DNA of 64,000 nt, from NCBI GenBank assembly GCA_902604785.1, contig CACLAC010000002.1:1-64000 (forward strand), read 5' to 3'. Every line of letters starts with the position of its first letter. Position 1 is the stretch's first letter. Source of the stretch: an uncultured Pelagibacteraceae bacterium (lineage in GTDB: Bacteria > Pseudomonadota > Alphaproteobacteria > Pelagibacterales > Pelagibacteraceae). The notes beneath the pieces are model-generated. The model had not been told where the DNA came from, ran no database searches, and saw only the letters and a list, made by a program, of their open reading frames with translations. Shown here piece by piece: positions 2,210 through 55,663 of the stretch. The translations under genes were made by a program, and so were the position numbers.

Positions 2210-4438
2210 TTATTTTCCGATTCCAATGATAGTTAGATCATCATCAAGAATATCATTGTTTTCTTTAATTCCTTTTTCATTGTAATCCTTTTTCAAACTT
2301 TTTTTTCTAATTTCTTCAGTTGCATTTTCAAGTTCTTTTTTTAAAGAAAAGTTTTTGTGCTTTTTGATCAATTCTTTTACACCATCAATTCCTATTTCTT
2401 TATTATTTTCATCCAAACATTCTGAAAACCCGTCAGTAAAACAATATATTCTTCCCTCATCTAGTTTGAATGAAGCAAGTTTATAAACATCACTATATTT
2501 TTGTCTAATTACCGCTAAAGGAGTTGAGGAAGATGGAAATTCGGTAAAATTATCTCCTTTTCTCAATATTGCTGGTTGATGGCCGGCATTTGAAATTTCT
2601 ACTATATCGGTTTTTAAATTATAGCTACCAACAATTGATGTAATAAATGTTCCAGGTGGATTTGTTTCTTTCAAATCATTGTTCATTTCTAATAAAATTT
2701 CATTTGGTTTGAATTTTTGCCTAGCAAATATTTTGAAGAGGGTAATGGCTTTAGCCATTACCATTCCAGCATTTACTCCTTTTCCAGAAACATCTGATAA
2801 CGTAAAATAAAGTTGGTCATCATGAAGATAAAAATCATAAAAATCACCTGATATTTCTCTGGCTGGAATATTTAATCCATAAATAGGGTAATTTGATAAA
2901 TCTCTATTTGGCATTAATCTTTTTTGAACATTCATTGCAAGTTTAATTTCACTAGAAACCCTATTTTTCCATTTATTTTTTTGCTTTTCTGATTGTTCCA
3001 ACCTTTGCATTAAAACATTGTACTGAGTCCCAATAATTCCACTATCAGTAAATGGATCCTGCGGTGCTCTCATTGAATAATCTTCTGATTTAGCCTGCTT
3101 CGTTAATACTTCTAAAAGTTCGTGGGTATCAGTTGATGCATTGTGTTCTGAAATATTTAAACCTAGCTCTTCTTCTATTTTGCCAACTCTTAAAGGGAAA
3201 ATTAAATTGATTAATTTAAATATTATAAAGGATGAAAAGAAACAAAAACTACCAATGCTAACTATTCCTATTAGTTGAATTATTAATTGTTCAAACCTAG
3301 TTTTTTCAATTCCCATTAATTCAAAATTACCAAATAGTGCAACTGCAATTGTGCCCCAAATTCCACAAGCTAGATGAACTGGGATTGCACTTACTACATC
3401 ATCAATTTTCAATTTTTCTAATAAAACTATTGTTGATCCTGATACTAGTCCCCCAATACTTCCTATTAGAATAGCTTCCGAAGGTGTCACGTGTGCACAT
3501 CCTGCAGTAATTGAAACTAATCCTGCCAAAGGACCTGTGATCATGAATAATGGTTCGGGTTTTTTTAAAACTAGCACACCCATAATACTTGAAAAAATTA
3601 AACCGAATGAAGCAGATAAAAAAGTATTGATTAATATCAAAGGCACCTTTAAATCCATAGCCCCATTGGCTCCCCCATTAAAACCAAACCAACCAAACCA
3701 TAAAATTAACGCTCCCAATGCAGCCATAGGTGTGTTGCTCCCTTGGAAAGTTTTCCTTGCACCTTCTCTAAATCTTCCAGTTCTATTTCCAATAATTAAT
3801 AAAATTGAAAGTGCAACCCAACCTCCAACAGAATGAACAACTGAAGCACCTGCAAAATCTATGTATCCCATTTTACCAAGCCAACCAAATTTTTCACTTG
3901 GATCATCAAAATTAAATGCCCAGGCCCAATGACCAACTATTGGATATAAAAAACCTGAAGTAACAAATGTAATAATTACATATGAAAAAAATCTTAATCT
4001 TTCAGCAACTGCTCCTGATATAATAGTTGCTGCAGTAGCAACAAACATTGCCTGAAAAACAAAGTACGTCTGATAACCAGCTACATGAGTAGTAAAAAAA
4101 TAGAATCTATTTCCAAACAATCCCATTACACTTGTTCCGTACATTAGCGCAAAGCCAAAAGCCCAAAATGTAACCACAGCTATTCCAAAGTCGGTTACGT
4201 TTTTTAATGCTACGTTAATACTGTTTTTATTTCTAGAAAGACCAGACTCTAAACACATAAAGCCTGACTGCATCAAAAATACTAATATTGCGCAAATCAA
4301 TAACCAGAATGTATCTAGGTTTGCTTGTAGAATTGCATCTAGTCGAAATTCTAAAGCCTTTAATGTACCTTTTGTAGGCAGCTGATCAATCTTTGACTGA
4401 AGCTCGTTAATTAATGTTTGAGTATCGGCCTCAGTCAT
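2210..4438 (-). CDS. Ammonium transporter fused to C-terminal SpoIIE/RsbU-type PP2C phosphatase (paralog of 1-2056)
   Basis: 742 aa; Amt motifs FAGASVVHSVGGW and DDVVSAIPVHLACGIWG (twin His retained); C-terminal EISGDFYDFYLHDDQLYFTLSDVSGKGVNAGMVMAKA and DDDLTIIGIGK PP2C motifs. Confidence 0.95.
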   Translation of the reverse strand: MTEADTQTLINELQSKIDQLPTKGTLKALEFRLDAILQANLDTFWLLICAILVFLMQSGFMCLESGLSRNKNSINVALKNVTDFGIAVVTFWAFGFALMYGTSVMGLFGNRFYFFTTHVAGYQTYFVFQAMFVATAATIISGAVAERLRFFSYVIITFVTSGFLYPIVGHWAWAFNFDDPSEKFGWLGKMGYIDFAGASVVHSVGGWVALSILLIIGNRTGRFREGARKTFQGSNTPMAALGALILWFGWFGFNGGANGAMDLKVPLILINTFLSASFGLIFSSIMGVLVLKKPEPLFMITGPLAGLVSITAGCAHVTPSEAILIGSIGGLVSGSTIVLLEKLKIDDVVSAIPVHLACGIWGTIAVALFGNFELMGIEKTRFEQLIIQLIGIVSIGSFCFFSSFIIFKLINLIFPLRVGKIEEELGLNISEHNASTDTHELLEVLTKQAKSEDYSMRAPQDPFTDSGIIGTQYNVLMQRLEQSEKQKNKWKNRVSSEIKLAMNVQKRLMPNRDLSNYPIYGLNIPAREISGDFYDFYLHDDQLYFTLSDVSGKGVNAGMVMAKAITLFKIFARQKFKPNEILLEMNNDLKETNPPGTFITSIVGSYNLKTDIVEISNAGHQPAILRKGDNFTEFPSSSTPLAVIRQKYSDVYKLASFKLDEGRIYCFTDGFSECLDENNKEIGIDGVKELIKKHKNFSLKKELENATEEIRKKSLKKDYNEKGIKENNDILDDDLTIIGIGK

Positions 4439-4452
4439 AGATCAAATTCTAA

Positions 4453-4788
4453 TTAATCAACTAGTTTTCTCGCCTCTCCAGCATCATCAATAAATTTATC
4501 TGATTTTACAACCTTAACTACTTCAAATCCTGTGCCTAAAATTGCATTTTTAAACTCTTCTTCGTTTAAATTAGATTTATCTTCAAATGCAGAAACCGCT
4601 ACTCCTTCAGGCCAAGAAACTTTAACTTTTGCTGTAGGACTTACCGCAATTAATGCTTTTGTAACCATTTTTTGGCATTTGATACACATCATACCATTTA
4701 CTTGGCCAACCATAGACTCTGCTGCATAAAGTAAGTTGTTTATAGAAACAAAAAAAATTAAAAATAATATGCTTAATAATTTTCTCAT
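4453..4788 (-). CDS. Secreted/periplasmic heavy-metal-associated (HMA-like) domain protein
   Basis: 111 aa, signal-peptide-like N-terminus MRKLLSILFLIFFVSINNLLYAAES, then VNGMMCIKCQKMVTKAL with a CxxC motif in HMA-like context. Confidence 0.65.
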   Translation of the reverse strand: MRKLLSILFLIFFVSINNLLYAAESMVGQVNGMMCIKCQKMVTKALIAVSPTAKVKVSWPEGVAVSAFEDKSNLNEEEFKNAILGTGFEVVKVVKSDKFIDDAGEARKLVD

Positions 4789-4891: not shown

Positions 4892-5137
4892 TTATTCTTT
4901 TTTTTTCCAAATAAAATAAAAAAGATATGGAGCTGTAGCTGGAATAAAACCAAACCAAAACCATTCATCCCACCTAAATCCCTTGTCTATAGAAAGACTT
5001 TTTATGCCATTCCACCAGGTCAAATAGCCAATTAAAATCATCCAACCTAGGCTAATACTTACGAATATTTTTGCTTTGTCAGAAAAATTATATTTTGGAA
5101 TATTGTTAAAAAACTCTTTTATGTTATCTAAATTCAT
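4892..5137 (-). CDS. Small membrane protein of unknown function
   Basis: 81 aa with two hydrophobic segments; C-terminus duplicated at 2132-2205. Confidence 0.6.
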   Translation of the reverse strand: MNLDNIKEFFNNIPKYNFSDKAKIFVSISLGWMILIGYLTWWNGIKSLSIDKGFRWDEWFWFGFIPATAPYLFYFIWKKKE

Positions 5138-5146
5138 AAAAAAAAT

Positions 5147-5593
5147 TTAACATTTATTATTTCTAACAGCTTCCCGGGTCTCTAGAGCAAAAGTAATTTC
5201 ACAATCCTTCGAACCGTAGTCTGCAAGTGCTTTGATTGTATAATCTGTTCCATCGCCATATATACAGAAATAAAAATTAATATCTTTATAAGCTATTGGA
5301 ACTCCAAGTCCATCGTCTTCATCAATTATTTTTATTGTTGTGGCTTTAGTAGGAGTGCATGAGCTAGCACCATCAACCCAATATGAATCCGAGTCGGAAA
5401 AATATTCCGTTTGAGCTAATGAGATTTGTTGCATTGTATTTGAAGCCGCTGACATTTTTGTAGTCGTGGTATAAGAACCATAGGCTATTATGCCAACAGA
5501 TGCCAATACTCCTAGAATAGCTACAACAACTAAAAGTTCTATTAAAGTAAAACCTGGACTTAGAAAAAATAATTTTCTATTTTCACTCAACAC
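5147..5593 (-). CDS. Type IV pilin-like protein
   Basis: Class III prepilin signal PGFTLIELLVVVAILGVLASVGIIAYGSY. Confidence 0.85.
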   Translation of the reverse strand: MLSENRKLFFLSPGFTLIELLVVVAILGVLASVGIIAYGSYTTTTKMSAASNTMQQISLAQTEYFSDSDSYWVDGASSCTPTKATTIKIIDEDDGLGVPIAYKDINFYFCIYGDGTDYTIKALADYGSKDCEITFALETREAVRNNKC

Positions 5594-5604: not shown

Positions 5605-6093
5605 TTACTCAACATTAACTGTGTTTGTTAACAGGTTTGTGTTTTTAGCATCTTCATATTTAGCTGTGCAGGTTTCTATCTTTACACCTGAACTATTTGA
5701 AAGATGAATAACTCCTCTGTCATCAGTATCACAGTTACCTGACTTCGCGCCGCTACTTATAGCGTTTGTAGCTGGGGCGTAAGGATTAGAAAAATCGTCT
5801 GATGCTCCTAAAGAAGCTACTACAGCTTTGATAATTTCATCCGCATCACTTTTGTTTGTATCGCAGTCTAGATTGCCTTCCATTGCTTTTGATTCTCCAA
5901 TGTTGCATTTTTGAAGCTCATTTTGCACCCATTTTTTAACTGAGTTATGATTTGATTTAGAGGCACCTTTTTTTGCTGATTGTGTATATCCGTTATATGC
6001 CACAACTCCAACTGATGCTAAAATTCCTATAATTGCTACAACAACAAGTAGCTCGATTAGTGTAAAACCTTTATTCTTTTTTCTTTTTATCAT
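5605..6093 (-). CDS. Type IV pilin (candidate major pilin)
   Basis: MIKRKKNKGFTLIELLVVVAIIGILASVGVVAYNGY prepilin N-terminus. Confidence 0.88.
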   Translation of the reverse strand: MIKRKKNKGFTLIELLVVVAIIGILASVGVVAYNGYTQSAKKGASKSNHNSVKKWVQNELQKCNIGESKAMEGNLDCDTNKSDADEIIKAVVASLGASDDFSNPYAPATNAISSGAKSGNCDTDDRGVIHLSNSSGVKIETCTAKYEDAKNTNLLTNTVNVE

Positions 6094-6249: not shown

Positions 6250-6549
6250 ATGTCGTATAAGGTTACTGAAGAAGGCAACATATCAACTGTCTTTTTAGAT
6301 GGAGAGATTGATATGGATAAAACTGAAGCTGCTAAAGAATTAATAATGCCTTTAATTGAGGCAAAAAAAGAAGTTCATTTAAATCTTAAAGATGTTCAAT
6401 ATATGGACTCATCGGGTATCTCTGTACTCATAGAAAGTCATCAAAAAGCTGAGGAAGTTGGAACAAAAGTTACTTTAAAAGAGATAAGCAAATCAGTTTT
6501 AAAAGTAATAATGATGGCCAAACTAGAACAAATCTTAAATTTAGAATAA
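6250..6549 (+). CDS. STAS-domain anti-sigma factor antagonist (RsbV/SpoIIAA-like)
   Basis: 99 aa; VQYMDSSGISVLIESH motif with the expected phosphorylatable Ser region. Confidence 0.9.
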   Translation: MSYKVTEEGNISTVFLDGEIDMDKTEAAKELIMPLIEAKKEVHLNLKDVQYMDSSGISVLIESHQKAEEVGTKVTLKEISKSVLKVIMMAKLEQILNLE

Positions 6550-6553
6550 ATTT

Positions 6554-6964
6554 ATGAATATAGTTGAGTCACAAGATTTTGCAGTAAATACAAAAAGTCT
6601 TAGAGAGGTTAGAGATTTTGCAAGGAATATTTTTGATAAATCTCCTATTTTACAATCTCAAAAAGATGAACTTGTTCTAGCTATTGCAGAGGCGGCACAA
6701 AATATAGTCAAACATGCCTATAAAGATAATCAGGATACAACAGACAAAATGCAAATTAAGATTTCATTTAAAGACAATGAATTAGAAATAGGTTTTTTTG
6801 ATAAAGGAAAGCCTGTTAATGAAGAAAATATCAAGCATAGAAAATTAGATGATGTTAAGCCAGGAGGATTGGGAACTTATTTTATTCAGCAAATAATGGA
6901 TGAGGTTGTATTTAAAGAGTCAACTGGTTGGCATAACCATTTAGTTTTAACAAAAAAGTATTAA
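6554..6964 (+). CDS. HATPase serine-protein kinase / anti-sigma factor (RsbW/SpoIIAB-like)
   Basis: 136 aa; VLAIAEAAQNIVKHAYK N-box-like and KPGGLGTYFIQQIMDEV G-box-like motifs; immediately downstream of the STAS gene. Confidence 0.88.
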   Translation: MNIVESQDFAVNTKSLREVRDFARNIFDKSPILQSQKDELVLAIAEAAQNIVKHAYKDNQDTTDKMQIKISFKDNELEIGFFDKGKPVNEENIKHRKLDDVKPGGLGTYFIQQIMDEVVFKESTGWHNHLVLTKKY

Positions 6965-6981: not shown

Positions 6982-8220
6982 TTATCCCATAATAGCACCA
7001 ACATTAAAGATCGGGGAATACATGGCTATCATCAAGCCACCAATCATTAATCCCATAAATACGATCATTATTGGTTCTATTAAACTAGACATATTTTCTA
7101 CAGATGTATCGAATTCTTCCTCATAATATGCAGATACAGAAGTAAACATTTCATCTAAATTACCTGTTTGTTCGCCGACAGAAATTAGCTGACTAAATGT
7201 TGGTGGAAAAACTGGTTCTTTTAAAAATAATTTAGTTAATGTGTCTCCAGAAAAAACACCCTTTTTAACATTTTCCAAAGCTTGTGTTACTACATCGTTA
7301 TTACTAACTGATTTTGCAATTTCAATACTTTCTAATAAATTTACTCCAGCAGCACTTAAATTTCCCATAATTAAAGCAATCCTTGCAATAAGAGATTTTA
7401 AAATCATGTCTCCAAATACTGGAAGTTTTAGAACTCTTTCATGCCACTTGTATCTTATCGCTGGAATTTTGCTTGTTGTATATTTGAATATTGCAAAAAT
7501 AATTGCAAGAATAACAAAAAGCGTCAATCCTCCTGAGCCTCTTAAAAAATTACTCATATTCATAATTACAGCTGTAGGAGTTGGAAGAGCTACGCCCATA
7601 CCATCATACATTTTTGCAAATACTGGGACTACTTTAATTAACATGAAAACACTAACAGTTATTGCTACACTAAACATCACCCCAGGATACATCAACGCTC
7701 CTTTGATTTTCTTTTTTACCTTTTCTCTTTTTTCTAATGAGTCAACTAACTTTAATAAAAATGTATCCAATTTACCGCTGGCTTCTCCAGCTTTGATTAA
7801 ATTTATATAAACGTTATCGAAAATTTTTGGGTATTTTTCAAAGCATTTTGATAAAGTAACACCTCCCTCAAGACTTTTTCTTACATCTTCAATAATTTCC
7901 TTCATTGTTGGATGCTCAATTTGGTCTCTTAACATTTGCAATACGTTCAAAATAGGCAAACCAGCCTTAACCATAGTTGCAAATTGTTTAGAAAAAAGCA
8001 TAACATCTTGTGGTGTTACTTTTTTCTTACCAAACGAAAATCCACCACCTTTTTTCTTTTCTTTGACGGCTTTTTTCTTCTTTGATCTTGCTAAATTTGT
8101 AATAATGATCTTCTGTTCTTTTAGCTTAAAAGACGCTTCTTCTTGATTTAGAGCCTCTATGTCGCCTTCGACATATTTTCCTGCTGAAATACCTTTATAG
8201 GTAAATGTTTCTGAAGACAT
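6982..8220 (-). CDS. pilC: Type IV pilus inner membrane platform protein (PilC/GspF family)
   Basis: 412 aa; MLFSKQFATMVKAGLPILNVLQMLRDQ and LISVGEQTGNLDEMF GspF repeats. Confidence 0.93.
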   Translation of the reverse strand: MSSETFTYKGISAGKYVEGDIEALNQEEASFKLKEQKIIITNLARSKKKKAVKEKKKGGGFSFGKKKVTPQDVMLFSKQFATMVKAGLPILNVLQMLRDQIEHPTMKEIIEDVRKSLEGGVTLSKCFEKYPKIFDNVYINLIKAGEASGKLDTFLLKLVDSLEKREKVKKKIKGALMYPGVMFSVAITVSVFMLIKVVPVFAKMYDGMGVALPTPTAVIMNMSNFLRGSGGLTLFVILAIIFAIFKYTTSKIPAIRYKWHERVLKLPVFGDMILKSLIARIALIMGNLSAAGVNLLESIEIAKSVSNNDVVTQALENVKKGVFSGDTLTKLFLKEPVFPPTFSQLISVGEQTGNLDEMFTSVSAYYEEEFDTSVENMSSLIEPIMIVFMGLMIGGLMIAMYSPIFNVGAIMG

Positions 8221-8224
8221 TCAT

Positions 8225-10000
8225 TTATTCCATCGTAAGAACTCTATCGAATTCTCTAAAATTTAAATCACCTGATAAAATTAATTCTCTACCCATGTCA
8301 TGCATAGTTCTAAAGCCTTCTTTAATAGCTATTGCTTTTAGTTCTGGTGTTGTTGCTTTAGCTAAGATTGCTTCTTTTATGGCTTTCGTAACATTTAAGA
8401 CTTCATAAATTCCCATACGTCCTTTATATCCACTATCTTTACATTTTGGACATCCTTTTCCTTTAACTGCATTTGCTCTTGACGCTTGTTCAGGTGTAAA
8501 TCCAAAATCTGCTAAAACTTTTGGTGTTACATCTGGATCAGGTTCTCTACATTCTGTACAATTTTTTCTTGCTAATCTTTGTGCCAAAACTAAAGAACAT
8601 GCTGCTGAAATAAGATAATCAGGAGTTCCCATATTTTGTAATCTAGTAATTGAACTTGGCGCGTCGTTGGTATGGAGTGTACTAAAAACTAAGTGACCTG
8701 TAAGAGCGGCTTTTAAACCTATATCAACAGTTTCTTTATCACGCATCTCTCCAACTAAAATTATCTCTGGGTCTTGTCTTAAAAAAGATCTTAATGCTGC
8801 TGAAAAATTCAAACCAATATCATCTTTTATTTGAACTTGTCCTACACCATCCAATTCATATTCAACAGGATCCTCTGCTGTTAAAATATTTAAATGAGGT
8901 TGAGAAACTTCTTTTAAGATACTATATAAAGTTGTTGTTTTTCCAGATCCAGTTGGCCCTGTAACTAAAACTAATCCTTGAGTAGAGTGTATTGCTTTTC
9001 TTAGATTTTTTAAATCTCCTTCATCAAAATTCAATTGTTCTAAACTTATGTCTCCCGCATCTTTATTAAGAACCCTCATTACTATTCTTTCGTTTGTTGC
9101 TGTAGGCAAAATTGAAAGACGAAGGTCAACAACTTTTCCGTCTATTTTAAAAGGTATTGCTCCATCTTGTGGTAAACGTCTTTCTGCAATGTCTAGTTTA
9201 CCCATGATTTTAAATCTTGTTACGACAGCACCGTAGTTTGAATGTAAAAACTTTTTGAAGTGTTCTTGTTCTTGAAGCATACCATCTAATCTATATCTTA
9301 CTCTTGATGAAAATCTAAAAGGTTCAATATGAATATCAGAAACTCCAGATTTAATCGCTTCTGCAACCACTGCTGTACTAAATCTTATTACCTCTGATTC
9401 ATTTTCTAATGCTTCTATATCTTCTTCAGGAGTTTCTTCTAAAACTTCAGCACTTTCGTCTACATCATATTCAAAGGTTTTGGTTTTTTCCTCTTTTTCT
9501 TCTAGTTCTTGTCTTTCAGCATTTGCCGCTTTGATAGATTTTATCGTTGTTTCACCACCTTCTAACAATTTTTCAATGAAATCTGATATTTGTGTTACTT
9601 TTGCAGCATGAAGCTCTATCTCTTTCTTAGTTATTGTTCTTAGATTTCTCATTAAGCTTAATTTTGAACTATCAGAAATAGCTATATGAAGAATCTTGCC
9701 TTCGACTTTAAATGGAGCAATAAAATTCATATTTATATAATTTGATGGAAGAACTGATTTAATTTCTTCAGTGATTTCTATGTTTGAAAGATCAATTGTA
9801 GCTAAAGATTGTTCTGTAACTAAAAGATCTAATATTTTATCTTCATCAGTTAGCTGTAATTCGAAGACTGCATCTAGCTGTGATTTTTTACTTTCTGTTG
9901 AAACTTTTTTAATATTAGCTAAATCTTTTCCAGAAATTATATCTTGATCAATTAAGATATTGATTAGATTAATCTCTGATTCTCTACTTATATTTATCAT
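8225..10000 (-). CDS. pilB: Type IV pilus assembly ATPase (PilB/GspE family)
   Basis: Walker A GPTGSGKTTTLYS, AEDPVEYELDGVGQVQI, zinc-binding CTEC...CPKCKDSGYKGRMGIYEVL; N-terminal MshEN-like region. Confidence 0.93.
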   Translation of the reverse strand: MINISRESEINLINILIDQDIISGKDLANIKKVSTESKKSQLDAVFELQLTDEDKILDLLVTEQSLATIDLSNIEITEEIKSVLPSNYINMNFIAPFKVEGKILHIAISDSSKLSLMRNLRTITKKEIELHAAKVTQISDFIEKLLEGGETTIKSIKAANAERQELEEKEEKTKTFEYDVDESAEVLEETPEEDIEALENESEVIRFSTAVVAEAIKSGVSDIHIEPFRFSSRVRYRLDGMLQEQEHFKKFLHSNYGAVVTRFKIMGKLDIAERRLPQDGAIPFKIDGKVVDLRLSILPTATNERIVMRVLNKDAGDISLEQLNFDEGDLKNLRKAIHSTQGLVLVTGPTGSGKTTTLYSILKEVSQPHLNILTAEDPVEYELDGVGQVQIKDDIGLNFSAALRSFLRQDPEIILVGEMRDKETVDIGLKAALTGHLVFSTLHTNDAPSSITRLQNMGTPDYLISAACSLVLAQRLARKNCTECREPDPDVTPKVLADFGFTPEQASRANAVKGKGCPKCKDSGYKGRMGIYEVLNVTKAIKEAILAKATTPELKAIAIKEGFRTMHDMGRELILSGDLNFREFDRVLTME

Positions 10001-11544
10001 TATAATATTCTTGGTGCTATAAATACCAATAATTCATCTAGGTCATCAACATTTTTTTTACTTTTAAATAAATTTCCAACTACTGGAACATTTCCTATGC
10101 CCGGAACTTGTTTTTTTGAGTCTGCAACTTTATTTTTCTTTATACCACCAATTACTACTATATCTCCATCTGCTACTAATAATTTTGTTACAATTTCCAT
10201 TTTATTTAATGGTGGTTGTTCTGCATCACTGCTTTCATCTACTGAGTCATTATTAACTTTTATTTCTAATAAAACGTTTCCATCTCCAATAATGCTTGGG
10301 GTAACTACTAGTTTTAAAGCCGCTTCTTTAAATGAAGTGGTTGTTCCCTCAGCAGAAGTAGTTTGATAGGCTACTTCTTGACCTTGTGTAACTGTTGCAA
10401 TTTGATTATCCAAAGTAAATACCTTCGGGTTTGAAATAGTTCTACCAAAGCCTCTTGCCTCTAAAGCTGTTATTTCTGCTTTTAGAACTCCTGTCCCCGT
10501 AGCTTTCAAAATTCCTATACCACTTGTTGCACCTCCGGCACCTAGATTTGTTATAGTATCAACATTGCTAGCTAAAGCTGCGGATGTGTCACTTAATGTT
10601 CCGGCTGAACTAGTTCCCATTACTCCACCTATTTGCTTACCTCTTTTTTTCCAATATCCGCCAAGTTTTGTTCCTAACTCTCTTTCAAAATCAGAGTTTG
10701 CTTCAACTATAAAAGCTTCGATAAGAACTTGTTTTGTTCTTATATCAATTTCTTTGATAACTTTATCAACCACATCTAGATCTTTTTCTTTTCCTCTTAC
10801 AATTATTGATCTTGTTGTTGTTTCTTCAGTAATTTGAATTGGTGAAGAAGAAGATTCTCCGCCTGCTGAAAATAATTCATTAAGTGTATTTTTAGCTTCT
10901 GCTGGTGTTATATAATAAAGTCTAAATATTTCTGAGTAAATCGGTTCTACGCTGTCTTCCCATTCAACTTTCTTTTTTACAGCCTCAGCTCTTTCAGATT
11001 TATAATTTTCTTGTGCTGTCAAAGTTTCTGGGGAATGAATTCTTATCATATTACTTTTTACATCAATATCTGAAGCATAATTTTTCATATCCAGAATAGC
11101 TTGGAATGCTTTATCCCATGGAACATCTATTAATTCAGCTGATATTGCACCTGCAACTTCATCTCCTACTAAAACATTAATTTCTCCTATTTTACCCATC
11201 AATTTCATTGTTTCTTTGAAATCAAGATTCTTAAACTTCAAAGTTACTCTTTGTTTAAGTAAAGGATAATCATCTGGAATTATTAAATAATTTTTATTTA
11301 CTTCAGATGAAATTTTTTTTCTTTTACCTAGTTTTCTTGGATCTCCGTCAACTGGTTTTGGACCCATCTCTAAAGTTTTAGCTATTTCAGCTTGTTTTTT
11401 CTTCGCAATATCAGCTTTGATTAAAGGTGTATTGTGCTTAAAAGGTTTATTATATTTTTTAGCAAATTTAGAGTTTGCACATCCACTTAAAATTAAGGCT
11501 AATATAATAATACCAATCAATGAAAAAAACTTTTTAATATTCAT
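10000..11544 (-). CDS. pilQ: Type IV pilus secretin (PilQ/MshL family)
   Basis: Lipoprotein-like N-terminus (ALILSGCANS), secretin core IEAFIVEANSDFERELGTKLG ... GDIVVIGGIKKNKVADSKKQVPGIGNVPVVGNLFKS. Confidence 0.9.
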   Translation of the reverse strand: MNIKKFFSLIGIIILALILSGCANSKFAKKYNKPFKHNTPLIKADIAKKKQAEIAKTLEMGPKPVDGDPRKLGKRKKISSEVNKNYLIIPDDYPLLKQRVTLKFKNLDFKETMKLMGKIGEINVLVGDEVAGAISAELIDVPWDKAFQAILDMKNYASDIDVKSNMIRIHSPETLTAQENYKSERAEAVKKKVEWEDSVEPIYSEIFRLYYITPAEAKNTLNELFSAGGESSSSPIQITEETTTRSIIVRGKEKDLDVVDKVIKEIDIRTKQVLIEAFIVEANSDFERELGTKLGGYWKKRGKQIGGVMGTSSAGTLSDTSAALASNVDTITNLGAGGATSGIGILKATGTGVLKAEITALEARGFGRTISNPKVFTLDNQIATVTQGQEVAYQTTSAEGTTTSFKEAALKLVVTPSIIGDGNVLLEIKVNNDSVDESSDAEQPPLNKMEIVTKLLVADGDIVVIGGIKKNKVADSKKQVPGIGNVPVVGNLFKSKKNVDDLDELLVFIAPRIL

Positions 11545-12004
11545 CGGCCTGCCTTACAATATTATTAAAATCAATGATTAAGTATGATTTGTCTTCTTTT
11601 TGAAAAATAGCTTCAGTTAATCTTAAATCAATTAATTTAATTTTACCTAAATTTTGTCCTAAAGTTAAAATTGTATTATCTCCAGAAGCGTCTACTAAAG
11701 AAATATAACTGTGGTCTTGTCCTGAAATTAAACCTGTCAATTTATAATTATATAAACTAAATTGCTCTTGCTTTTCTTCTTCTGGAATATTTGAGTTAGA
11801 AGATGATGTGCCTTCATTTCCAACAAATGGATCATTTAATGGAACATCTTCTTCTTCTTCGATTTGTTTATTTATTTCTTTAGCCAGATTAACTATTTCT
11901 TCTGTTGTTTTTTGAGTTTCATCAGCTAGTGCAGTAGATGGTCCAGCTAAAATAAAAATTATAATAAATAAAATTCTAAAAAAACTCATTTGGCAATCCC
12001 ACAA
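11534..12004 (-). CDS. PilP-like type IV pilus periplasmic protein
   Basis: Position between secretin and PilO-like genes; signal sequence; YKLTGLISGQDHSYISLVDASGDNTILTLGQNLGKIKLIDLRLTEAIF resembles PilP/GspC-like. Start may be 11989 (MSFFRIL). Confidence 0.65.
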   Translation of the reverse strand: MWDCQMSFFRILFIIIFILAGPSTALADETQKTTEEIVNLAKEINKQIEEEEDVPLNDPFVGNEGTSSSNSNIPEEEKQEQFSLYNYKLTGLISGQDHSYISLVDASGDNTILTLGQNLGKIKLIDLRLTEAIFQKEDKSYLIIDFNNIVRQADEY

Positions 12005-12614
12005 TAGTTAATTCTCCTTTGGCAATTATCGCCCCAGTTGAATCATTTTGTACTACAGATATAGTCTCTTTGTCAAAGTTTAAACTTTTTTTAGATTTTG
12101 ACACGGCTCTTTTAAACTTAATATATCCCAAAAAATTACCTTTAATCTCATAATCTACTGGAATCTTATAATAAGAAATCATACCTACTTTTATTTTATC
12201 TTTAGATTGTTTTGCTTTGCCCTTTTTGAAAACTGGTTTAGGCTCTTTCTTTTCAATTTTTGATATTACCAAACCATTCGCAGCAGCAAATCTACTTAAA
12301 CTATTATACAAATCTTCAACTTCGGCTTTGGAGTGAAATAAAGTTGAAACTTTTTTAAATTCTGGAGTTAATTTTTTTATTTTTTTTTTCATTGATATAA
12401 TATCATTTTGAAATTGTTCTGTTTCTTGTTCTTTTAAAATTTTATCTTGATATATTGCTTCTCTCTTCTTCACCATTGGATTTAATATTGAATAATAAAT
12501 TATCAAAAATAAAATAATCGAACCAAATCCTATACCAAATTTAATTAATGTTTTTTTATCAATAGATTGGAGTTTTTCTTTTAAGTCTGAAATTTGAATA
12601 TTTTTTAAGTCCAT
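11976..12614 (-). CDS. PilO-like type IV pilus alignment protein
   Basis: Single TM followed by coiled coil and C-terminal domain (LYNSLSRFAAANGLVISKIEKKEPK...YYKIPVDYEIKGNFLGYIKF). Confidence 0.75.
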   Translation of the reverse strand: MDLKNIQISDLKEKLQSIDKKTLIKFGIGFGSIILFLIIYYSILNPMVKKREAIYQDKILKEQETEQFQNDIISMKKKIKKLTPEFKKVSTLFHSKAEVEDLYNSLSRFAAANGLVISKIEKKEPKPVFKKGKAKQSKDKIKVGMISYYKIPVDYEIKGNFLGYIKFKRAVSKSKKSLNFDKETISVVQNDSTGAIIAKGELTIVGLPNEFF

Positions 12615-14450: not shown

Positions 14451-15467
14451 ATGTTTGAGAAATTAGAAGATTTAGCAAAAAATAATAAAAAAATATCTGA
14501 CTTTCATATCAGGGCTGGTTCACCATTAGCATATAGACAAACTGGTGAAATTATAATGGTGAAAGAAGTTATGGTTAATGCTCAAGATCTAAAAGATTTA
14601 CTTTCTATGAATTGTAATGAAGCAGAATTAGATAGATTTGCAAAAACTCATGAGTTGGATACCGCTGTTACTTTAAGTGGTTTAAGATTTAGGGCAAATT
14701 TTTATAAAACTATAAACGGTCCAGCATGTGTTTGCAGAAGAGTTGAGAGCCGAATACCAGAGATGGATCAATTTAACTTGCCTCAACCACTTTATGATAT
14801 AGTTGACATGCATAAAGGATTAGTTTTGGTTACAGGTCCTACTGGTTCAGGAAAATCTACTACTCTTGCAGCAATTGTAAATGAAATAAATAAAACTAGA
14901 TCGGCAAATATTGTGACTGTTGAGGATCCAGTTGAATTCATTCATAAAGATAATAGGAGTATAGTGTCTCATAGGGAAGTTGGAAAACAAACTAAGTCAT
15001 TTGCTGCAGCATTAAAGGCAGCTCTAAGAGAAGATCCTGATGTAATTCTTGTTGGAGAAATGAGAGATCTTGAAACAATAAGTTTAGCTTTAACAGCTGC
15101 TGAAACTGGACATTTAGTATTTGGAACTTTGCACACAAGTGGTGCCCCAAGCACAATAAATAGAATTATAGATGTATTTCCTCCAGAACAACAAGAACAA
15201 ATTCGAGCTCAAATTTCAACGTCTTTAAAAATGGTAGTTACACAAAGGTTAATGAAAACAAAAGATGGATTGGGACGTGTTGGAGCTTTTGAAATAATGA
15301 AATGTACTTCACCTATCCAAAACTTAATTAGAGAAGCAAAAATTCATCAAATCCCAAGTATCATGCAAACAGCAACAAGAGAAGGTATGATTACAATGGA
15401 AAAATCATTAGAAGAATTAGTTAAATCAGGAAAAATTGATCCAGGTGCAGCAAGATCAGGGCATTAA
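14451..15467 (+). CDS. pilT: Type IV pilus retraction ATPase (PilT/PilU family)
   Basis: GPTGSGKSTTLAAIVNEINK, VEDPVEFIHKDNRSIVSHREVG, REDPDVILVGEMRDLETISLALTAAETGHLVFGTLHT. Confidence 0.92.
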   Translation: MFEKLEDLAKNNKKISDFHIRAGSPLAYRQTGEIIMVKEVMVNAQDLKDLLSMNCNEAELDRFAKTHELDTAVTLSGLRFRANFYKTINGPACVCRRVESRIPEMDQFNLPQPLYDIVDMHKGLVLVTGPTGSGKSTTLAAIVNEINKTRSANIVTVEDPVEFIHKDNRSIVSHREVGKQTKSFAAALKAALREDPDVILVGEMRDLETISLALTAAETGHLVFGTLHTSGAPSTINRIIDVFPPEQQEQIRAQISTSLKMVVTQRLMKTKDGLGRVGAFEIMKCTSPIQNLIREAKIHQIPSIMQTATREGMITMEKSLEELVKSGKIDPGAARSGH

Positions 15468-18241: not shown

Positions 18242-18826
18242 ATGTCCAAATTAAATAAAATCATCTTTTCTCTTTTGGCTTACATGCTTCTAGTTTCGGC
18301 AGCAATAGCAAAATGCGATTTTGGAATAAAAATAGGTGAAAATATTTCAGATAAATTCGAAGGACAATATGGAATTGCAAATAAAATAGCTGAAGAAGAA
18401 AACATTCCTGAAGAAGAAAATATATATGTCGAAAATAACGGCATACAATTTATATATTTTGATGCAAATGAAATATGTAATACCAGTTCTTTAAAAGATA
18501 TAGAGATAGAATTTACTGTATTATATGATGAACTTGCATCAATTAGAATGACAGCAATCAATGATGAGAAAAATATTCCAACTAAAAAATTTACTTTAAT
18601 GAAATATGCTAAATCAAATTATGGTGACTTCGACACTGGTTTTGATCCAGAAACATTTAATGATTTTTATCATTGGAGAAAAAATAAGTCTTTGGTGATT
18701 TATAGTAGAACAATAAATAAAGATAATATTTGGGATGAAGAAATTTATATTACAAATGATAGATATGAGGAAGCTATAAACTTAGCACTAAGTGGAGAAA
18801 TTGAAATTAAAAATTCAAATGAATAA
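18242..18826 (+). CDS. Secreted protein of unknown function in the minor pilin operon
   Basis: 194 aa, signal-peptide-like N-terminus (LLAYMLLVSAAIAKC), no recognised domain. Confidence 0.6.
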   Translation: MSKLNKIIFSLLAYMLLVSAAIAKCDFGIKIGENISDKFEGQYGIANKIAEEENIPEEENIYVENNGIQFIYFDANEICNTSSLKDIEIEFTVLYDELASIRMTAINDEKNIPTKKFTLMKYAKSNYGDFDTGFDPETFNDFYHWRKNKSLVIYSRTINKDNIWDEEIYITNDRYEEAINLALSGEIEIKNSNE

Positions 18827-24389: not shown

Positions 24390-24446
24390 TTTTCCATTAA
24401 AAAACTTTATTTAATGATATATTGGCATTTTGACTTTTACTATCAT
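24390..24446. repeat. 57-bp direct repeat, copy B
   Basis: ttttccattaAaaaactttatttaatgatatattggcattttgacttttactatcat; encodes the last codons (DSKSQNANISLNKVF*) of the autotransporter-like gene. Confidence 0.95.
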
Positions 24447-26688
24447 GAAGAAGATCAGTATCAATATTGAATTTTAGATCAAAACCATTAAATTTTTTAA
24501 CAATATTAAAACCTGTTTGAATTGTTTCACTGCCACTAATAGATAATGCATACTCTGTTTCTGTATTTGGAACCCATCCTGCAGTAAAGTTCAAATTATC
24601 TGTATTACCAGTTCCATTTTCTGCATAATCTATTTCATAATTTAAAATTATAGACCAACCATTTATTGTTGATAAATCAAAACCTAATCCTGCTTTATAA
24701 TTATGTGTAGACTGATTTCCAATTTTTATATAATTGTATGGGTTAGGACTACTTACATATGAAACATGAGTACTAGTTGATGGACTAAAATCAGCAGTAT
24801 ATTCTAAACGAACCATAGGTTTTAGCACATTCCCATTATTAAATTGTTTAGTACTATCAACTAACATTCCTATAGAAGCTAAACCTTTTGGAATTCGATG
24901 CTTGTCATAAATTAACGCATGAGCACTTCCACTTTCTTGAAAAGTAGCTAGTTCTGTATAACCAAAATCAAATCTTGCAGTTGGATTTATATTAATATTT
25001 TTTTTATAGTATATTTTATTTAATTTAATCGACCCAAAAGCTTGTTTGCCGTCCCTTTTTCCTCTTAAATTAACACCCTCTTTTTTCCTTAAGTGATATG
25101 TTTTCAACGTACTTACGCCTAATGCTGCATCTAAAAAACGTCCATCTTCATGAGGCAATGTTCCATAAAAAACTAAACTATAATTATCAGTATCTAATAG
25201 AGCAGCGGAATTACCAATGTCAGCACTATCTCTTCCAAATTGAAGTGCATAACCGTACATTTTATTTTCAGTTACTTTTTTATCTGCACCAATTGTTATA
25301 TTGTTTGTATCTATCTCTTTCCTTGAAGAGCCTGAGGTTGCTTCTATATCGCCAATACTAACTTGTCCTTCACTCCAAAAAAACCAATCACCCTTCTGCT
25401 CTTCATTAGTTGAACTTTCTTTATTTCCTACAGGTATTACTTTAGCTAATGAAGCAAGCATTTCGTTAGAAAAGTTAAATTTTAAATTCTGATTTGTTAA
25501 ATTGTCTTCTTTTCTATGTCTTCTTAACCATTCAAGACGATGCATAACTGGTTTTATATTATTCTTCATAACTCTTTTGGACATTTCGGTATAAGATTCT
25601 AAAACCCCAATCATATCTTTATCAGAATCTGAAACAGGGTTTTTACAAGTGACTACTCCGTAAGGACAGTCCAAACTATACTGTAAAATCGCTTGTCTTA
25701 ATATGCTCTTACCGGACTCCCATCTAGACCATGTGGTATATAATTTTGATCCATCATTGTTAAATTCCATATACTTTAATTCTCCAAAAATACTGTCTCC
25801 GGTTGCAGCTTCTATGATTTCCTGATATTTTGCAGTCAAATCTATACTTCCTAAATGAGCAACTGTAGATGATAAATCAAAACCAGTAGATAAACTGTAT
25901 TGATGTATCTTATCACCATTTGCATCAGCTTCGCCATCTGAGTCAATTACAAACATCATTGTACCATCATCATTAAATCGAAGACCGCTTGGATTATCTA
26001 TACCCTCTGCTTCTAAATCATAAGATTGGCCAGAGTCTGAAGCTGTATTAATATCAAATCCTTCAGATAAATGAAATTCATAAACACTATTACCCCCATT
26101 TGTTGTTACAAACATTTTTGTACCGTCAGAGTTAAATGACAATCCATAAGCATCATTTTCACCGATATTTACTGCTGCAGTATCAGTTAGATCAATTCCT
26201 TTTTTGTCAGGATCTGTATTTGTTGTAATATCATAATTAGTACTTAAATTAATTTCACAAATATCACTATCGAGAGTATTATTTAGTTCATTGGTCAAAA
26301 AAAGTTTTGAACCGTCATTATTAAAAAATGCATCACCTGGTTGTTGAAACTTACCACTACCACCGCATCTTAATCTAATACCCAATTCATCATTAAAAAG
26401 AACTGTACCTCGAATATCCCAAGGGGTTCCTAAGTCATACTCAAAAATATCATCATCACTACTGCCAGCAGAGGAAGTTGTTTTTGAATGTACTATATAC
26501 ATTTTAGTTCCATCTGAATTGAAAGTTATTCCTCTATAAGCTCGAAAAGCATGGTCTAACATACTTTCAGACACTCCTGCACTAACTTTGTCTATCTGCA
26601 AGCTAGCTTCAAAAGTAGCCGCAGCAAAAGAATTATTTTGAAATATTGATAAAAAAAAAATGTTTATAAATAATATTATTTTTTTCAT
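24397..26688 (-). CDS. Autotransporter-like surface protein: N-terminal beta-propeller repeats, C-terminal beta-barrel
   Basis: 763 aa; repeated FNSDGTKMYIV / FNNDGSKLFLT / FNSDGTKMFVT / FNDDGTMMFVI motifs; C-terminal region of alternating strands ending in Phe. Confidence 0.7.
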   Translation of the reverse strand: MKKIILFINIFFLSIFQNNSFAAATFEASLQIDKVSAGVSESMLDHAFRAYRGITFNSDGTKMYIVHSKTTSSAGSSDDDIFEYDLGTPWDIRGTVLFNDELGIRLRCGGSGKFQQPGDAFFNNDGSKLFLTNELNNTLDSDICEINLSTNYDITTNTDPDKKGIDLTDTAAVNIGENDAYGLSFNSDGTKMFVTTNGGNSVYEFHLSEGFDINTASDSGQSYDLEAEGIDNPSGLRFNDDGTMMFVIDSDGEADANGDKIHQYSLSTGFDLSSTVAHLGSIDLTAKYQEIIEAATGDSIFGELKYMEFNNDGSKLYTTWSRWESGKSILRQAILQYSLDCPYGVVTCKNPVSDSDKDMIGVLESYTEMSKRVMKNNIKPVMHRLEWLRRHRKEDNLTNQNLKFNFSNEMLASLAKVIPVGNKESSTNEEQKGDWFFWSEGQVSIGDIEATSGSSRKEIDTNNITIGADKKVTENKMYGYALQFGRDSADIGNSAALLDTDNYSLVFYGTLPHEDGRFLDAALGVSTLKTYHLRKKEGVNLRGKRDGKQAFGSIKLNKIYYKKNININPTARFDFGYTELATFQESGSAHALIYDKHRIPKGLASIGMLVDSTKQFNNGNVLKPMVRLEYTADFSPSTSTHVSYVSSPNPYNYIKIGNQSTHNYKAGLGFDLSTINGWSIILNYEIDYAENGTGNTDNLNFTAGWVPNTETEYALSISGSETIQTGFNIVKKFNGFDLKFNIDTDLLHDSKSQNANISLNKVF

Positions 26689-27446
26689 AACATTGCATGT
26701 AAAAAACTATCTTTAAATACTATAAAAATCATTGTTGCAATAATTATGTAGGGTCCAAAAGGTATTTGAGAGCTTAGTTTTTTTGATTTTTTTAATAAAT
26801 CTGGAATGACAATGATTAAAGCTGTAACTGATGAAAGAAAAATAACAAATGGAATTGAAATCCAGCCAAACCAAAAGCCAATAACTGCCAAAAGTTTTGC
26901 ATCACCTAATCCCATTCCTTCTTTGTTTCTAATTTTTTTATAAAAGACAATTAAAAACCAAATAATTCCATATCCTATTATTCCACCAAGCAAAGAATTT
27001 ATATAATTTGGAAAAATAGGGCTTAAGTTTGGGTCAAAAGATTTAAAAAATCCTAATGCCATCATAGGAAAAGTTAAAACATCCGGAATGATATAATGCT
27101 TTAGATCAATAAAAAAAATTATTAAAAACGATAAAAATAATATCATTAATAAAATTGTTGTAAGAGAAATTCCAAATAAATAATAAATAATTAAAAAAGA
27201 AATAATACTTATCGCTTCAACTATCAGATATTGAGTTGAAATTTTTTTTTTGCATTTGCTGCATTTTCCTCCAAGTATTAAATAAGATAAGACAGGTATA
27301 TTTTCATACCAAAATATTTTTTTTTTACACTTTGGGCAAAATGATCTTCCTTTGACAACTCCTCCTTTTAATGGAAGTCTATAAATGCAAACATTGGCAA
27401 AGCTTCCCCATAATGACCCTAGAATACCAACTAGTAAAAGATCCAC
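26685..27446 (-). CDS. pilD: Prepilin peptidase / N-methyltransferase
   Basis: GSLWGSFANVCIYRLP, two CxxC pairs (FCPKCKKK, KCSKCKKK), GLGDAKLLAVIGFWFG active-site motif. Confidence 0.93.
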   Translation of the reverse strand: MDLLLVGILGSLWGSFANVCIYRLPLKGGVVKGRSFCPKCKKKIFWYENIPVLSYLILGGKCSKCKKKISTQYLIVEAISIISFLIIYYLFGISLTTILLMILFLSFLIIFFIDLKHYIIPDVLTFPMMALGFFKSFDPNLSPIFPNYINSLLGGIIGYGIIWFLIVFYKKIRNKEGMGLGDAKLLAVIGFWFGWISIPFVIFLSSVTALIIVIPDLLKKSKKLSSQIPFGPYIIIATMIFIVFKDSFLHAML

Positions 27447-27614: not shown

Positions 27615-28907
27615 ATGTTTCTATTTAAACCAAAAAAACCTGATCCAAATAAAACAGATGCTAATCTTAAAGTAAACTTAGATCTCGAGATCATTACAAA
27701 AATGAATCAAGAATTTGCTGTATCTCTTGACTTAAATGAAACTCTAATGACAGCTCTAAAAGTTATAATTACAAGAATAAATGCTCAAGCTGCAAATATA
27801 TTTTTGATAAATGAAAAAAAGAAAAAATTTGAATGTATTGCATCATTACATCAAGATTATTTAGACGAATATGAGCTAGATCTTAAAGATGGAGTTATGG
27901 GTAAAGCAGTTGAACAAAGAAAATGTATTAGGGTTGGAAATGTTAGAAAAGATGTTAGAGAAATAGCTGAATTTTATTTTGATTTAGATAACAAAACTAA
28001 TTTTACAACATATTCAGTTTTATGTTCTCCATTAATTGCAGCCAATGAATGTATCGGTGTCATTCATTGTTTAAATAAAAAAACAGATGACAAGCTATTT
28101 ATCGAAGATGATAGACAGCTATTAGAAACTCTTTCTGCACCTGCTGCACTTGCTATTCGTAATGCAAAAATGGCTAAAGATATGGTTGAAAAAAATAAAA
28201 TACAAAAAGAAGTAGAAATTGTTGGTGAAATTCAAAAATCTCTTTTATCACAAAATAAAAAAGATGCCTTCCCTATTGCAGGAATTAATATCCCTGCAAA
28301 AGTAGTATCTGGAGATTTTTATAATTTTGCAGATTTAGGAGATGGTAAATATGGTTTTGGTGTAGCCGATGTATCAGGTAAAGGAATTAAATCTTCTCTT
28401 TTAATGTCAAAAGCATCAAGTCTTTATCGATGTTTGAGTAAGACAAATTTTTCAGCCGCAGATTTATTAATACAATTAAATAATGAAATTTGTGAAACCA
28501 TTTCCCGAGGTATGTTTGTAACAATGCTCATTGGAATTTATGACAGTAATAAAAAAGAATTGTTACTATCAAGCGCAGGTCATGAACCTCCAATAATATT
28601 TGCTAAAGATGGAACTTTTACAAATTATAGTGAAGCCGGTCCTCCCTTAGGAATTATGCCAAAAACTAAATATACTGAACACACTATACCTTTTACAGAT
28701 AGTTCAATGTATATTTTCACTGATGGAATTACAGAAATAAAAAATCCAAATGGTGAAATGCTAGGATCAGAAGGTTTTCAAAATTATATTAAAAAGTATC
28801 AAGCAAGTCCTAATAATGAAAGACTAAAAACTATGATTGATGATATTTTGAATGCAGGTCATATTCAAAAGGATGATTTAACAATTGTAGTAGTTGATGG
28901 AAAATAA
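27615..28907 (+). CDS. GAF-domain SpoIIE/RsbU-type PP2C phosphatase
   Basis: 430 aa; GAF-like N-terminal half (LIAANECIGVIHCLNKK), PP2C VVSGDFYNFADLGDGKYGFGVADVSGKGIKSSLLMSKA, KDDLTIVVVDGK. Confidence 0.9.
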   Translation: MFLFKPKKPDPNKTDANLKVNLDLEIITKMNQEFAVSLDLNETLMTALKVIITRINAQAANIFLINEKKKKFECIASLHQDYLDEYELDLKDGVMGKAVEQRKCIRVGNVRKDVREIAEFYFDLDNKTNFTTYSVLCSPLIAANECIGVIHCLNKKTDDKLFIEDDRQLLETLSAPAALAIRNAKMAKDMVEKNKIQKEVEIVGEIQKSLLSQNKKDAFPIAGINIPAKVVSGDFYNFADLGDGKYGFGVADVSGKGIKSSLLMSKASSLYRCLSKTNFSAADLLIQLNNEICETISRGMFVTMLIGIYDSNKKELLLSSAGHEPPIIFAKDGTFTNYSEAGPPLGIMPKTKYTEHTIPFTDSSMYIFTDGITEIKNPNGEMLGSEGFQNYIKKYQASPNNERLKTMIDDILNAGHIQKDDLTIVVVDGK

Positions 28908-32894: not shown

Positions 32895-32941
32895 GAATCG
32901 AGAATTTAAATTTTTTTTATGAGTGTATCTTAATAAACTTT

Positions 32942-35008
32942 TTAATTCTTCTTTTTTTTTCTATCTATAATATCTGTATTTTTAAGATCTAGGGCTAAAC
33001 AAGTTATATCATCTCTTAATTTATCAATGCCCCAGTTAAGTTCTGAAGCTATAGAATCTACTATCTTTTTAGGTGTAATATCATCTATATCTTTTACTAT
33101 TCTTTCAACTCCTTCTGCTCCGAGTTCTTGACCATTTTCTAAATATCCTTCTGTTACTCCATCAGTGTAAACTATAAATGATTTTTCGTTTAAATTTATA
33201 GTTTTTGATTTAACCATAGATTCGGCAAAATATTTTATAATGCCAATTGGCGGTAGTTCAGATTTTATAAATTCAAAATTTTTATCTTTATCTACAACCA
33301 TAATACTTTCATGGCCTGCATTTACAAAAGTTACTTCTTTTGTTTTTACATTAAATTTACCAAACACAGCTGTTACAAACATTCCCTTAAATTTTGCTTC
33401 AACTATTTCGTTATTTACAAGATAAACAACTTTTTCTAGTGGAAATGATAAATTAGAAAGAGTTCTAAAAGTTGAAGATGCTTTGGCCATATACATTCCA
33501 GCTTTAACTCCTTTTCCAGATACATCGGCTAAAGTAAAATAATATTCATCTTGTCCTACGCTAATTACATCAAAATAATCTCCCGAGACATCTCTTGCAG
33601 GAATATTTCTTGCATATACAAAATTTTCAAATTTTGAAATATCTGGGAATAAACTTTTTTGTACACCTCCTGCTAGTTCTCTTTCTTTCAATAATTTTGC
33701 TTCTTTTTGTAGATTTTCTAGTGCCATTTTATTTTCTTCAATAAATCTAAAATATAGCCCGGTTAAGAAAGTAATTGTAAGCATAAAGATTGGGTAGCTA
33801 ATATCGATTAATTCTGATCTTAAAATAAAAATACTAAAACCAATTATAATTACTGTAATTAAACTTACAAAAAAAATTGATAAACTGTACTTAGGTTTTA
33901 ATTTTTGCGATAAAAAAAACGTTATAAAGGCTACGATAATTGAGAATAATAATTCGAAAACATATATATTTGGATTTCTTAATAGATAAGATTTATCTAA
34001 AATATTTTCAATTACATTTGCATGAACTTCAACACCTGGTAAAGTAATACCTAAAGGAGTTTTAACTAAATCAAACAATCCTTGAGCAGAAGCTCCTATC
34101 AAAACAAACTTATTTTCAAACCTTGATTTATCGAAATTTCCTTCAAATACTGAACTGGCAGATATATATTGGCTCTTTAGAGGTTGTTTGTACCTAATCC
34201 AAAAAATTCCATTTGGGTCTGTTAAAATCTTATGAGGTCTAACGCTAATTCTGTTTATTCCAATCTCATCCAATTCAACATATAAATTTTTTTGATTTAA
34301 ACCGACACGGACCATTTCGAGTCCCATTGTAGGATATATTTTTTTATTAAAACGTAAGATTAAAGGTAAAGATCTTATAATACCGTCAGTTTGGTCTAGG
34401 AATGAGATGGATCCAAGACCTTTTACACTTTTCTCTAATTTTTCAAGTGATCCTATAGAATACGGATAGTTAAAAGTATGTAGTTTTGGATCACCACCTT
34501 TAGATAAAAATCTTGCTTTTGATTTACGATCATAACTTGAATGTGATGATACGTTGCTTCCTAAAACTGCAAGAACTGATTTTGAATTTTCTAACTGTTT
34601 TCTAAATCTTTCATCATGTCCTTTTATATTAGTTAAATAATTTATTACATCGCCAGATAATATATTGTAGGACTTGATTATTTCTTCGGGACTTTGTTTA
34701 TCTTTTTCACTAAAAAATACATCGAATCCAATTGCCTTTGGATTTGCTTGATTAACATTTTCAATTATTTTTGCAAAAACAGATCTGCTCCAAGGAAATT
34801 GTCCAAATGTTCCTAAACTTTTTTCATCTATATCGATAATAATTACTTCGGAGTCTTGTTTGGTTAAGGGTATAATTTTTTGATATAAATCAAAACTTAA
34901 ATAAGAAATTGATTTTATAAAATTTGGATTAAATGTTTTTAGTGATATTAAAAGAATCAATAATAAGAAAAAAATTAGGTAATTTTTAAATTTTAATAAA
35001 GGTTTCAC
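32942..35008 (-). CDS. CHASE2-domain membrane sensor with C-terminal SpoIIE/RsbU-type PP2C phosphatase
   Basis: 688 aa; EVIIIDIDEKSLGTFGQFPWSRSVFAKIIENV CHASE2 motif, TM segments, PP2C DVSGDYFDVISVGQDEYYFTLADVSGKGVKAGMYMAKA. Confidence 0.92.
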   Translation of the reverse strand: MKPLLKFKNYLIFFLLLILLISLKTFNPNFIKSISYLSFDLYQKIIPLTKQDSEVIIIDIDEKSLGTFGQFPWSRSVFAKIIENVNQANPKAIGFDVFFSEKDKQSPEEIIKSYNILSGDVINYLTNIKGHDERFRKQLENSKSVLAVLGSNVSSHSSYDRKSKARFLSKGGDPKLHTFNYPYSIGSLEKLEKSVKGLGSISFLDQTDGIIRSLPLILRFNKKIYPTMGLEMVRVGLNQKNLYVELDEIGINRISVRPHKILTDPNGIFWIRYKQPLKSQYISASSVFEGNFDKSRFENKFVLIGASAQGLFDLVKTPLGITLPGVEVHANVIENILDKSYLLRNPNIYVFELLFSIIVAFITFFLSQKLKPKYSLSIFFVSLITVIIIGFSIFILRSELIDISYPIFMLTITFLTGLYFRFIEENKMALENLQKEAKLLKERELAGGVQKSLFPDISKFENFVYARNIPARDVSGDYFDVISVGQDEYYFTLADVSGKGVKAGMYMAKASSTFRTLSNLSFPLEKVVYLVNNEIVEAKFKGMFVTAVFGKFNVKTKEVTFVNAGHESIMVVDKDKNFEFIKSELPPIGIIKYFAESMVKSKTINLNEKSFIVYTDGVTEGYLENGQELGAEGVERIVKDIDDITPKKIVDSIASELNWGIDKLRDDITCLALDLKNTDIIDRKKKKN

Positions 35009-35074
35009 ATTAAGAACTTAACCTTAATAAAACTAAAGTAAATATAGCAAAAAAGAGAAAGATTTTAGTGTTTA

Positions 35075-55659: not shown

Positions 55660-55663
55660 AAAG

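Follow-up and report, generated by a model that had tools for sequence, protein, structure and literature searches.

The window that we analysed, a stretch of 64,000 nucleotides from an uncultured Pelagibacteraceae (SAR11) bacterium, begins at base 1 of contig C2, which is why one of its genes, the second Amt-SpoIIE fusion, is cut (Table 1). Inside a type IV pilus locus it carries a gene for a STAS-domain protein followed by one for an RsbW/SpoIIAB-like kinase, and because the kinase start lies only 4 bases past the STAS stop, the two probably form one operon. A first-pass annotation had placed a STAS and HATPase-kinase pair on the + strand between the pilins and pilC, and the reading frames and their Pfam matches agree with it. 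Its description of a partner-switching pair holds as regards the nature of the pair; that the system consists of two genes only does not, as four SpoIIE phosphatases encoded here had been overlooked.

Table 1. Genes and other features of the window, with family matches (E-values) and remarks.
Feature	Position	Strand	Matches and remarks
Amt-SpoIIE fusion 2, truncated by contig end	1..2056	-	PF00909 1.4e-109, PF07228 5.9e-30
Amt-SpoIIE fusion 1: ammonium-receptor-like Amt, linker, PP2C/SpoIIE phosphatase	2210..4438	-	PF00909 2.9e-108, PF07228 1e-27
MerP/CopZ-like heavy-metal-associated protein, signal peptide and CxxC	4453..4788	-	NCBIfam MerP/CopZ matches weak, below cut-off
Small conserved protein, 81 aa, probably membrane, between pilins and Amt-SpoIIE	4892..5137	-	
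Second type IV pilin	5147..5593	-	N_methyl PF07963 7.1e-07
Type IV pilin, divergent from STAS	5605..6093	-	N_methyl PF07963 2e-10
STAS-domain protein, RsbV/SpoIIAA-like, conserved YMDSSG phospho-serine motif	6250..6549	+	99 aa; Pfam STAS PF01740 E=1.2e-16
RsbW/SpoIIAB-like serine kinase, HATPase_c_2	6554..6964	+	136 aa; PF13581 E=2.3e-21
PilC/GspF inner-membrane platform protein	6982..8220	-	T2SSF 3.8e-60; downstream of kinase, convergent
PilB-type extension ATPase, MshEN domain	8225..10000	-	T2SSE 4.7e-123, MshEN 2e-12
Secretin (PilQ)	10000..11544	-	Secretin 6.6e-41
PilO	11976-12614	-	PilO 3.5e-05
PilM-PilN fusion	12614-14326	-	PilM_2 2.6e-20, PilN 1.4e-07
PilT-type retraction ATPase	14451..15467	+	T2SSE 1.9e-48
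NHL-repeat protein	18792-23327	+	1511 aa
Autotransporter beta-domain protein	24397-26688	-	
Prepilin peptidase PilD	26685..27446	-	A24_N_bact 3e-31, Peptidase_A24 2.7e-22
GAF-SpoIIE phosphatase, adjoining prepilin peptidase	27615..28907	+	Pfam SpoIIE 5.9e-42, GAF_2 4.9e-11
FecR domain	31010-31588		
CHASE2-SpoIIE membrane phosphatase, flanked by FecR-domain genes	32942..35008	-	CHASE2 9.5e-54, SpoIIE 2.9e-32
FecR domain	35075-36256		
TPR protein	36390-37727		
tmRNA gene	55649-55960	+	Tag peptide ANESYALAA (asterisk-marked by ARAGORN)
tRNA-Leu(gag)	56499-56584		

The STAS protein is a single-domain one with a phosphorylatable serine (DSSG). It scores 71 bits against the NCBIfam ant_ant_sig model (cut-off 53), and the motif YMDSSGIS is unchanged in all 16 aligned copies. 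Its partner, a serine kinase of the HATPase_c_2 type, has an N-box and G-boxes: EAAQN (N-box), D.G and GGLGT (G2-box) are kept across relatives. By sequence, the closest solved structures to the two proteins are Bacillus subtilis RsbV (6m36_B) and RsbW (6m36), and the AlphaFold model of the kinase has SpoIIAB and RsbW as its top fold matches (TM about 0.8), with a weak match to SiaB-SiaC. The kinase scores far below the NCBIfam equivalog cut-offs of both RsbW (58.8 bits vs 145) and SpoIIAB (33.7 vs 135). In the available genome (1.04 Mb, 70% complete) there is one STAS gene and one RsbW-like HATPase_c_2 kinase, both in the window.

The two pilins open a same-strand series of genes that runs away from the pair: after them come the 81-aa protein, the MerP-like protein and the two Amt-SpoIIE fusions, and the successive intervals measure about 11, 9, 103, 14 and 153 bases. 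The 81-aa protein has no match in Pfam or NCBIfam and is kept at the same place in many loci. The MerP/CopZ-like protein is a conserved neighbour in several loci, and a 46% identical copy adjoins the kinase in locus L067, which suggests a metal-related link. Farther along the pilus locus lies an autotransporter beta-domain protein; a SAR11 autotransporter adhesin is reported to adjoin genes for type IV pili or for type II secretion in every case (PMC12636525). The NHL-repeat protein, which follows the minor-pilin run, is placed like a PilY1-type pilus tip protein. Promoter and terminator motifs at the divergent pilin-STAS promoter were considered and set aside, their counts being no higher than in shuffled sequences of this AT-rich DNA; intergenic conservation between clades is low in this region.

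A SpoIIE/PP2C phosphatase is the customary third partner of STAS-kinase switches. The window encodes four with catalytic motifs, and no SpoIIE protein was found elsewhere in the available genome (1.04 Mb, 70% complete). The motifs SGD, D(V)SGKG-type, GH and TDG align in all four SpoIIE domains, and DD(L/I)T is present in the three complete proteins, fusion 2 ending before the position of this motif. The AlphaFold model of Amt-SpoIIE, of low overall pLDDT (64) and better in the phosphatase domain, was used for fold matching only, and its SpoIIE part matches the PP2C domains of SiaA and RssB. With these phosphatases, the locus is predicted to be a complete RsbUVW-type kinase-STAS-phosphatase circuit with four sensory inputs, which are likely the sensor domains of the phosphatases (Amt, Amt, GAF and CHASE2). 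As for the surroundings of the CHASE2-SpoIIE gene, the stretch 31010-36256 combines it with FecR-domain proteins and a SlipAM-like outer-membrane protein, and the TPR protein is close by. The divergent genome G012 (L081) again has CHASE2-SpoIIE together with TPR and p393-like (FecR-domain) genes, and G509 (L127) has it with a TPR-like gene.

The Amt-SpoIIE pair look like ammonium sensors. The structures closest to the Amt part are the receptor Sd-Amt1 of Shewanella denitrificans (ON/OFF states) and the sensor Ks-Amt5 of Kuenenia, with plain transporters ranking behind them, and the match to Sd-Amt1 extends past the Amt part into the linker. In Ks-Amt5, the high-affinity ammonium site comprises Q24, E31, N47, D50, T51, T109 and T112, and the pore is blocked by F27, Y30 and F34 (PMC5764959). 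Every fused SAR11 Amt has five of the seven site residues identical (Q24, E31, N47, D50, T109), with T112 replaced by S and T51 by F; F27 is retained, Y30 and F34 are not, and the twin histidines and Phe gate of the pore are intact. In six stand-alone SAR11 Amts, A or H stands at position Q24, L at D50 and S at T109 (Ks-Amt5 numbering), and these three positions appear to tell receptor-type Amts apart from uptake-type ones within the same organisms. P-II was found in 0 of 55 same-genus genomes and in 30 of 36 from the sister family; because the genus seems to do without it, another ammonium sensor would fill a gap. Outside the genus, a search of 399 Pseudomonadota genomes gave no Amt-SpoIIE among its best 25 loci.

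The named relatives with kinases 61-86% identical are all Pelagibacteraceae (SAR11). Among 91 same-genus genomes, most of them incomplete, 37 have the kinase, not counting G071 with its weak match broken by a stop, and the same 37 and no others have pilC. All 37 also have SpoIIE, which is found in 8 more genomes, all incomplete, with no kinase or PilC detected. Fisher tests on this co-occurrence (91 genomes) give p=2e-26 and 5e-18, values that exaggerate the support since the genes are adjacent, sharing assembly gaps, and the genomes are related. Gene order is the stronger evidence: pilin, STAS, kinase and PilC follow one another in every fully assembled close-type locus (30 genomes), with no exception, and the kinases of these conserved loci differ from that of the window by up to 44%. 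Whether the linkage to the pilus genes is conserved had been set as a check beforehand, and the unbroken order in 30 genomes, together with kinase and PilC in the same 37 of 91, answers it positively. The pair's arrangement in the pilus locus is not due to chance, because it is seen again in 30 SAR11 genomes.

The phosphatases vary more from locus to locus. Amt-SpoIIE is intact, in a single frame, in 26 same-genus genomes, and all 20 members scanned match both the Amt and the SpoIIE families, as a fusion of Amt to a signalling domain. Other loci have CHASE2- or GAF-type SpoIIE nearby. Because a sizeable share of the loci assembled in full have no Amt-SpoIIE right beside the pilins, with CHASE2- and/or GAF-SpoIIE there instead, ammonium cannot be the only input of the switch. 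In G055 the Amt-SpoIIE next to the pilins has decayed to fragments (L042 8031-8299) and another contig (L170) carries an intact one, and in G509, of the same family, CHASE2-SpoIIE stands in place of Amt-SpoIIE. In some genomes a single kinase is accompanied by two STAS genes in tandem (L046, L062, L063, L064, L065, L069 and L080), the second of which has a different, shorter C-terminus. G012 and G082 are complete genomes whose pilus is divergent: their PilC and other pilus genes are about 45% identical and the kinase is within about 1 kb of pilT; each has one CHASE2-SpoIIE, elsewhere than the kinase, and no STAS gene was found beside the kinase in the stretches read.

What the switch acts on is a question that the sigma factors help to answer. 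The first-pass annotation had reported none in the window and proposed searching the rest of the genome. The Sigma70_r2 search of the available genome is in line with this, giving only RpoD (contig 7) and an RpoH-type protein (C2:74500, about 10.5 kb past the window) whose neighbours, a pseudouridine synthase-like and a purA-like gene, are housekeeping in look. Same-genus genomes have at most RpoD and RpoH, in the same number with or without the switch, apart from G003, where an extra Sigma70_r2 match is below the family cut-off, and G018, where the extra sigma is of the ECF type and is followed by a candidate membrane anti-sigma gene (L124 1453-2582), unusual for the genus. These searches, which besides G018 and G003 give only RpoD and RpoH, led us to reject a dedicated sigma factor as target; it appears unlikely because the set is the same with or without the switch. 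A cognate sigma, encoded or co-occurring with the kinase as for a strict anti-sigma RsbW/SpoIIAB, was not found in these genomes, and the kinase seems to be without the defining partner of an anti-sigma factor. Arg20 of SpoIIAB was also considered as a marker of sigma binding and discarded as non-discriminating: every kinase of the family has Arg at position 20, the profile alignment begins at residue 27, and Arg20 of SpoIIAB is involved in docking STAS as well.

On balance, we think it probable that a partner-switching circuit is wired into the SAR11 type IV pilus locus and leads from nutrient-sensing phosphatases through STAS to the pili. The RsbW-like kinase would phosphorylate STAS at the DSSG serine and so keep it inactive, and any of up to four SpoIIE/PP2C phosphatases would strip the phosphate off, in response to external ammonium sensed by the two Amt domains or to the signals of one GAF and one CHASE2 domain. 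We infer from their kinds and neighbourhood that kinase, STAS and phosphatases are specific for one another; ammonium would be the ligand of the Amt domains, and its effect may be of either sign. The output would most likely be dephosphorylated STAS and not a freed sigma factor, and it would act on pilus production or activity, so that the state of the pili would track nutrient signals. Over 31 loci, the mean p-distance is 0.16 for STAS, 0.31 for the kinase and 0.15 for PilB; the low divergence of STAS fits a hub and possible output, and may also come from the need to fit several phosphatases. Because the pilus linkage is strictly conserved, a pilus role of the switch is favoured, and control of pilus expression or assembly, which had been suggested for the pair at the outset, may be its form. 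Gene linkage can also be a product of joint transfer or shared expression instead of direct control.

The kinase could still work in a classical anti-sigma circuit, sequestering RpoD or RpoH until unphosphorylated STAS frees the sigma factor, with pilus promoters merely among those affected. In fold and sequence it is nearest to the true anti-sigma factors RsbW and SpoIIAB, the RpoH gene lies 10.5 kb past the window, and the Rsb system of Chlamydia controls the availability of the primary sigma factor (PMC4552016). We nonetheless regard such a circuit as rather unlikely, given that RpoD and RpoH do not co-occur with the kinase, that the neighbours of rpoH look housekeeping, and that the kinase is the faster-changing partner compared with STAS. 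It is more improbable still that the target is unrelated to pili, for instance nitrogen uptake or metabolism, and that the pair merely hitch-hikes in the pilus neighbourhood. The Amt sensors and the absence of P-II do suggest a nitrogen role, and the 8 same-genus genomes with SpoIIE and undetected kinase or PilC, all incomplete, would suit it; yet the co-occurrence with PilC is perfect, the position between pilin and PilC is unbroken in spite of kinases differing by up to 44%, and the kinase stays near pilT even in G012 and G082.

A similarly small chance can be given to a division of labour in which not all four phosphatases act on STAS, the Amt-SpoIIE proteins being mainly transporters or acting on another phosphoprotein. 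Transport would agree with pores that have the twin histidines and Phe gate and are without two of the bulky residues that block Ks-Amt5. The 2025 phosphoproteome of strain HTCC1062 would fit as well: it holds >1000 Ser/Thr/Tyr phosphosites on 555 proteins, RsbW (SAR11_0057) is the single Ser/Thr kinase, and no protein phosphatase is known there (PMC13198564). Against this, SpoIIE-type PPM phosphatases typically target STAS proteins (PMC11418112), and a single STAS gene was found in the available genome. The preferred reading remains that of a nutrient-responsive switch acting through STAS on the pili. A bolder form of it, in which SAR11 bacteria sense ammonium through Amt-SpoIIE and a sigma-free switch directly sets type IV pili on or off, would be a PII-free, protein-level pathway from nutrient to pilus of a kind not described so far; we put this forward tentatively, and it may well turn out otherwise.

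SAR11 bacteria are noted for having few regulators. They are also the most abundant heterotrophic group of the surface ocean (PMC12636525). If our reading is true, these cells may tune their pili to nutrients with no sigma factor dedicated to the task, a prediction made from sequence. The SpoIIE genes offer candidates for dedicated phosphatases in many SAR11 genomes, which is useful given the phosphoproteome of HTCC1062; ammonium is proposed as an environmental input for some of them, and type IV pili as the likely target system. Two questions become testable in this way, namely how ammonium is sensed in a genus that lacks PII and what role the RsbW-like kinase of SAR11 plays. Our search of the open-access literature, as distinct from subscription journals, turned up no account of an Amt-SpoIIE fusion, nor one of a pilus-linked partner switch in SAR11.

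Comparison with known systems helps to place the switch. RsbU/RsbV/RsbW and SpoIIE/SpoIIAA/SpoIIAB of Bacillus have the same three parts and folds (phospho-serine STAS, HATPase_c_2 kinase, PP2C). Unlike them, the SAR11 switch lacks a dedicated sigma factor across the available genome and the genus (the ECF sigma of G018 apart), and its single pilus locus gathers four sensor phosphatases, of which two are fused to an ammonium-receptor domain. The PP2C fold of SiaA, which works with the kinase SiaB in Pseudomonas aeruginosa, resembles the SAR11 SpoIIE part. The target of SiaA/SiaB is a diguanylate cyclase, whereas nothing of that kind was identified adjoining the SAR11 switch. Ks-Amt5 is, like the SAR11 fusions, a receptor-type Amt joined to a signalling output domain; its output is a histidine kinase instead of a SpoIIE phosphatase, and its Y30, F34 and T51 are not kept in SAR11. 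Among alphaproteobacteria, RbaV/RbaW/RbaY of Rhodobacter capsulatus includes a STAS-kinase operon; no sigma gene lies near it and none has been found as its cognate, and the STAS protein RbaV is the decisive regulator there (PMC3999984). It differs in that RbaY has a REC domain and that its outputs are the gene transfer agent and stationary-phase survival, with no pilus link reported. Finally, HmpU/HmpV/HmpW of Nostoc punctiforme is a partner switch tied to type IV pilus motility, with the STAS protein HmpV as output (PMC6495340, PMC8256260). It serves the development of hormogonia in a cyanobacterium, and we liken it to the SAR11 switch by type of system, not by orthology. The parts of the SAR11 switch are of known kinds; their combination appears to be new.
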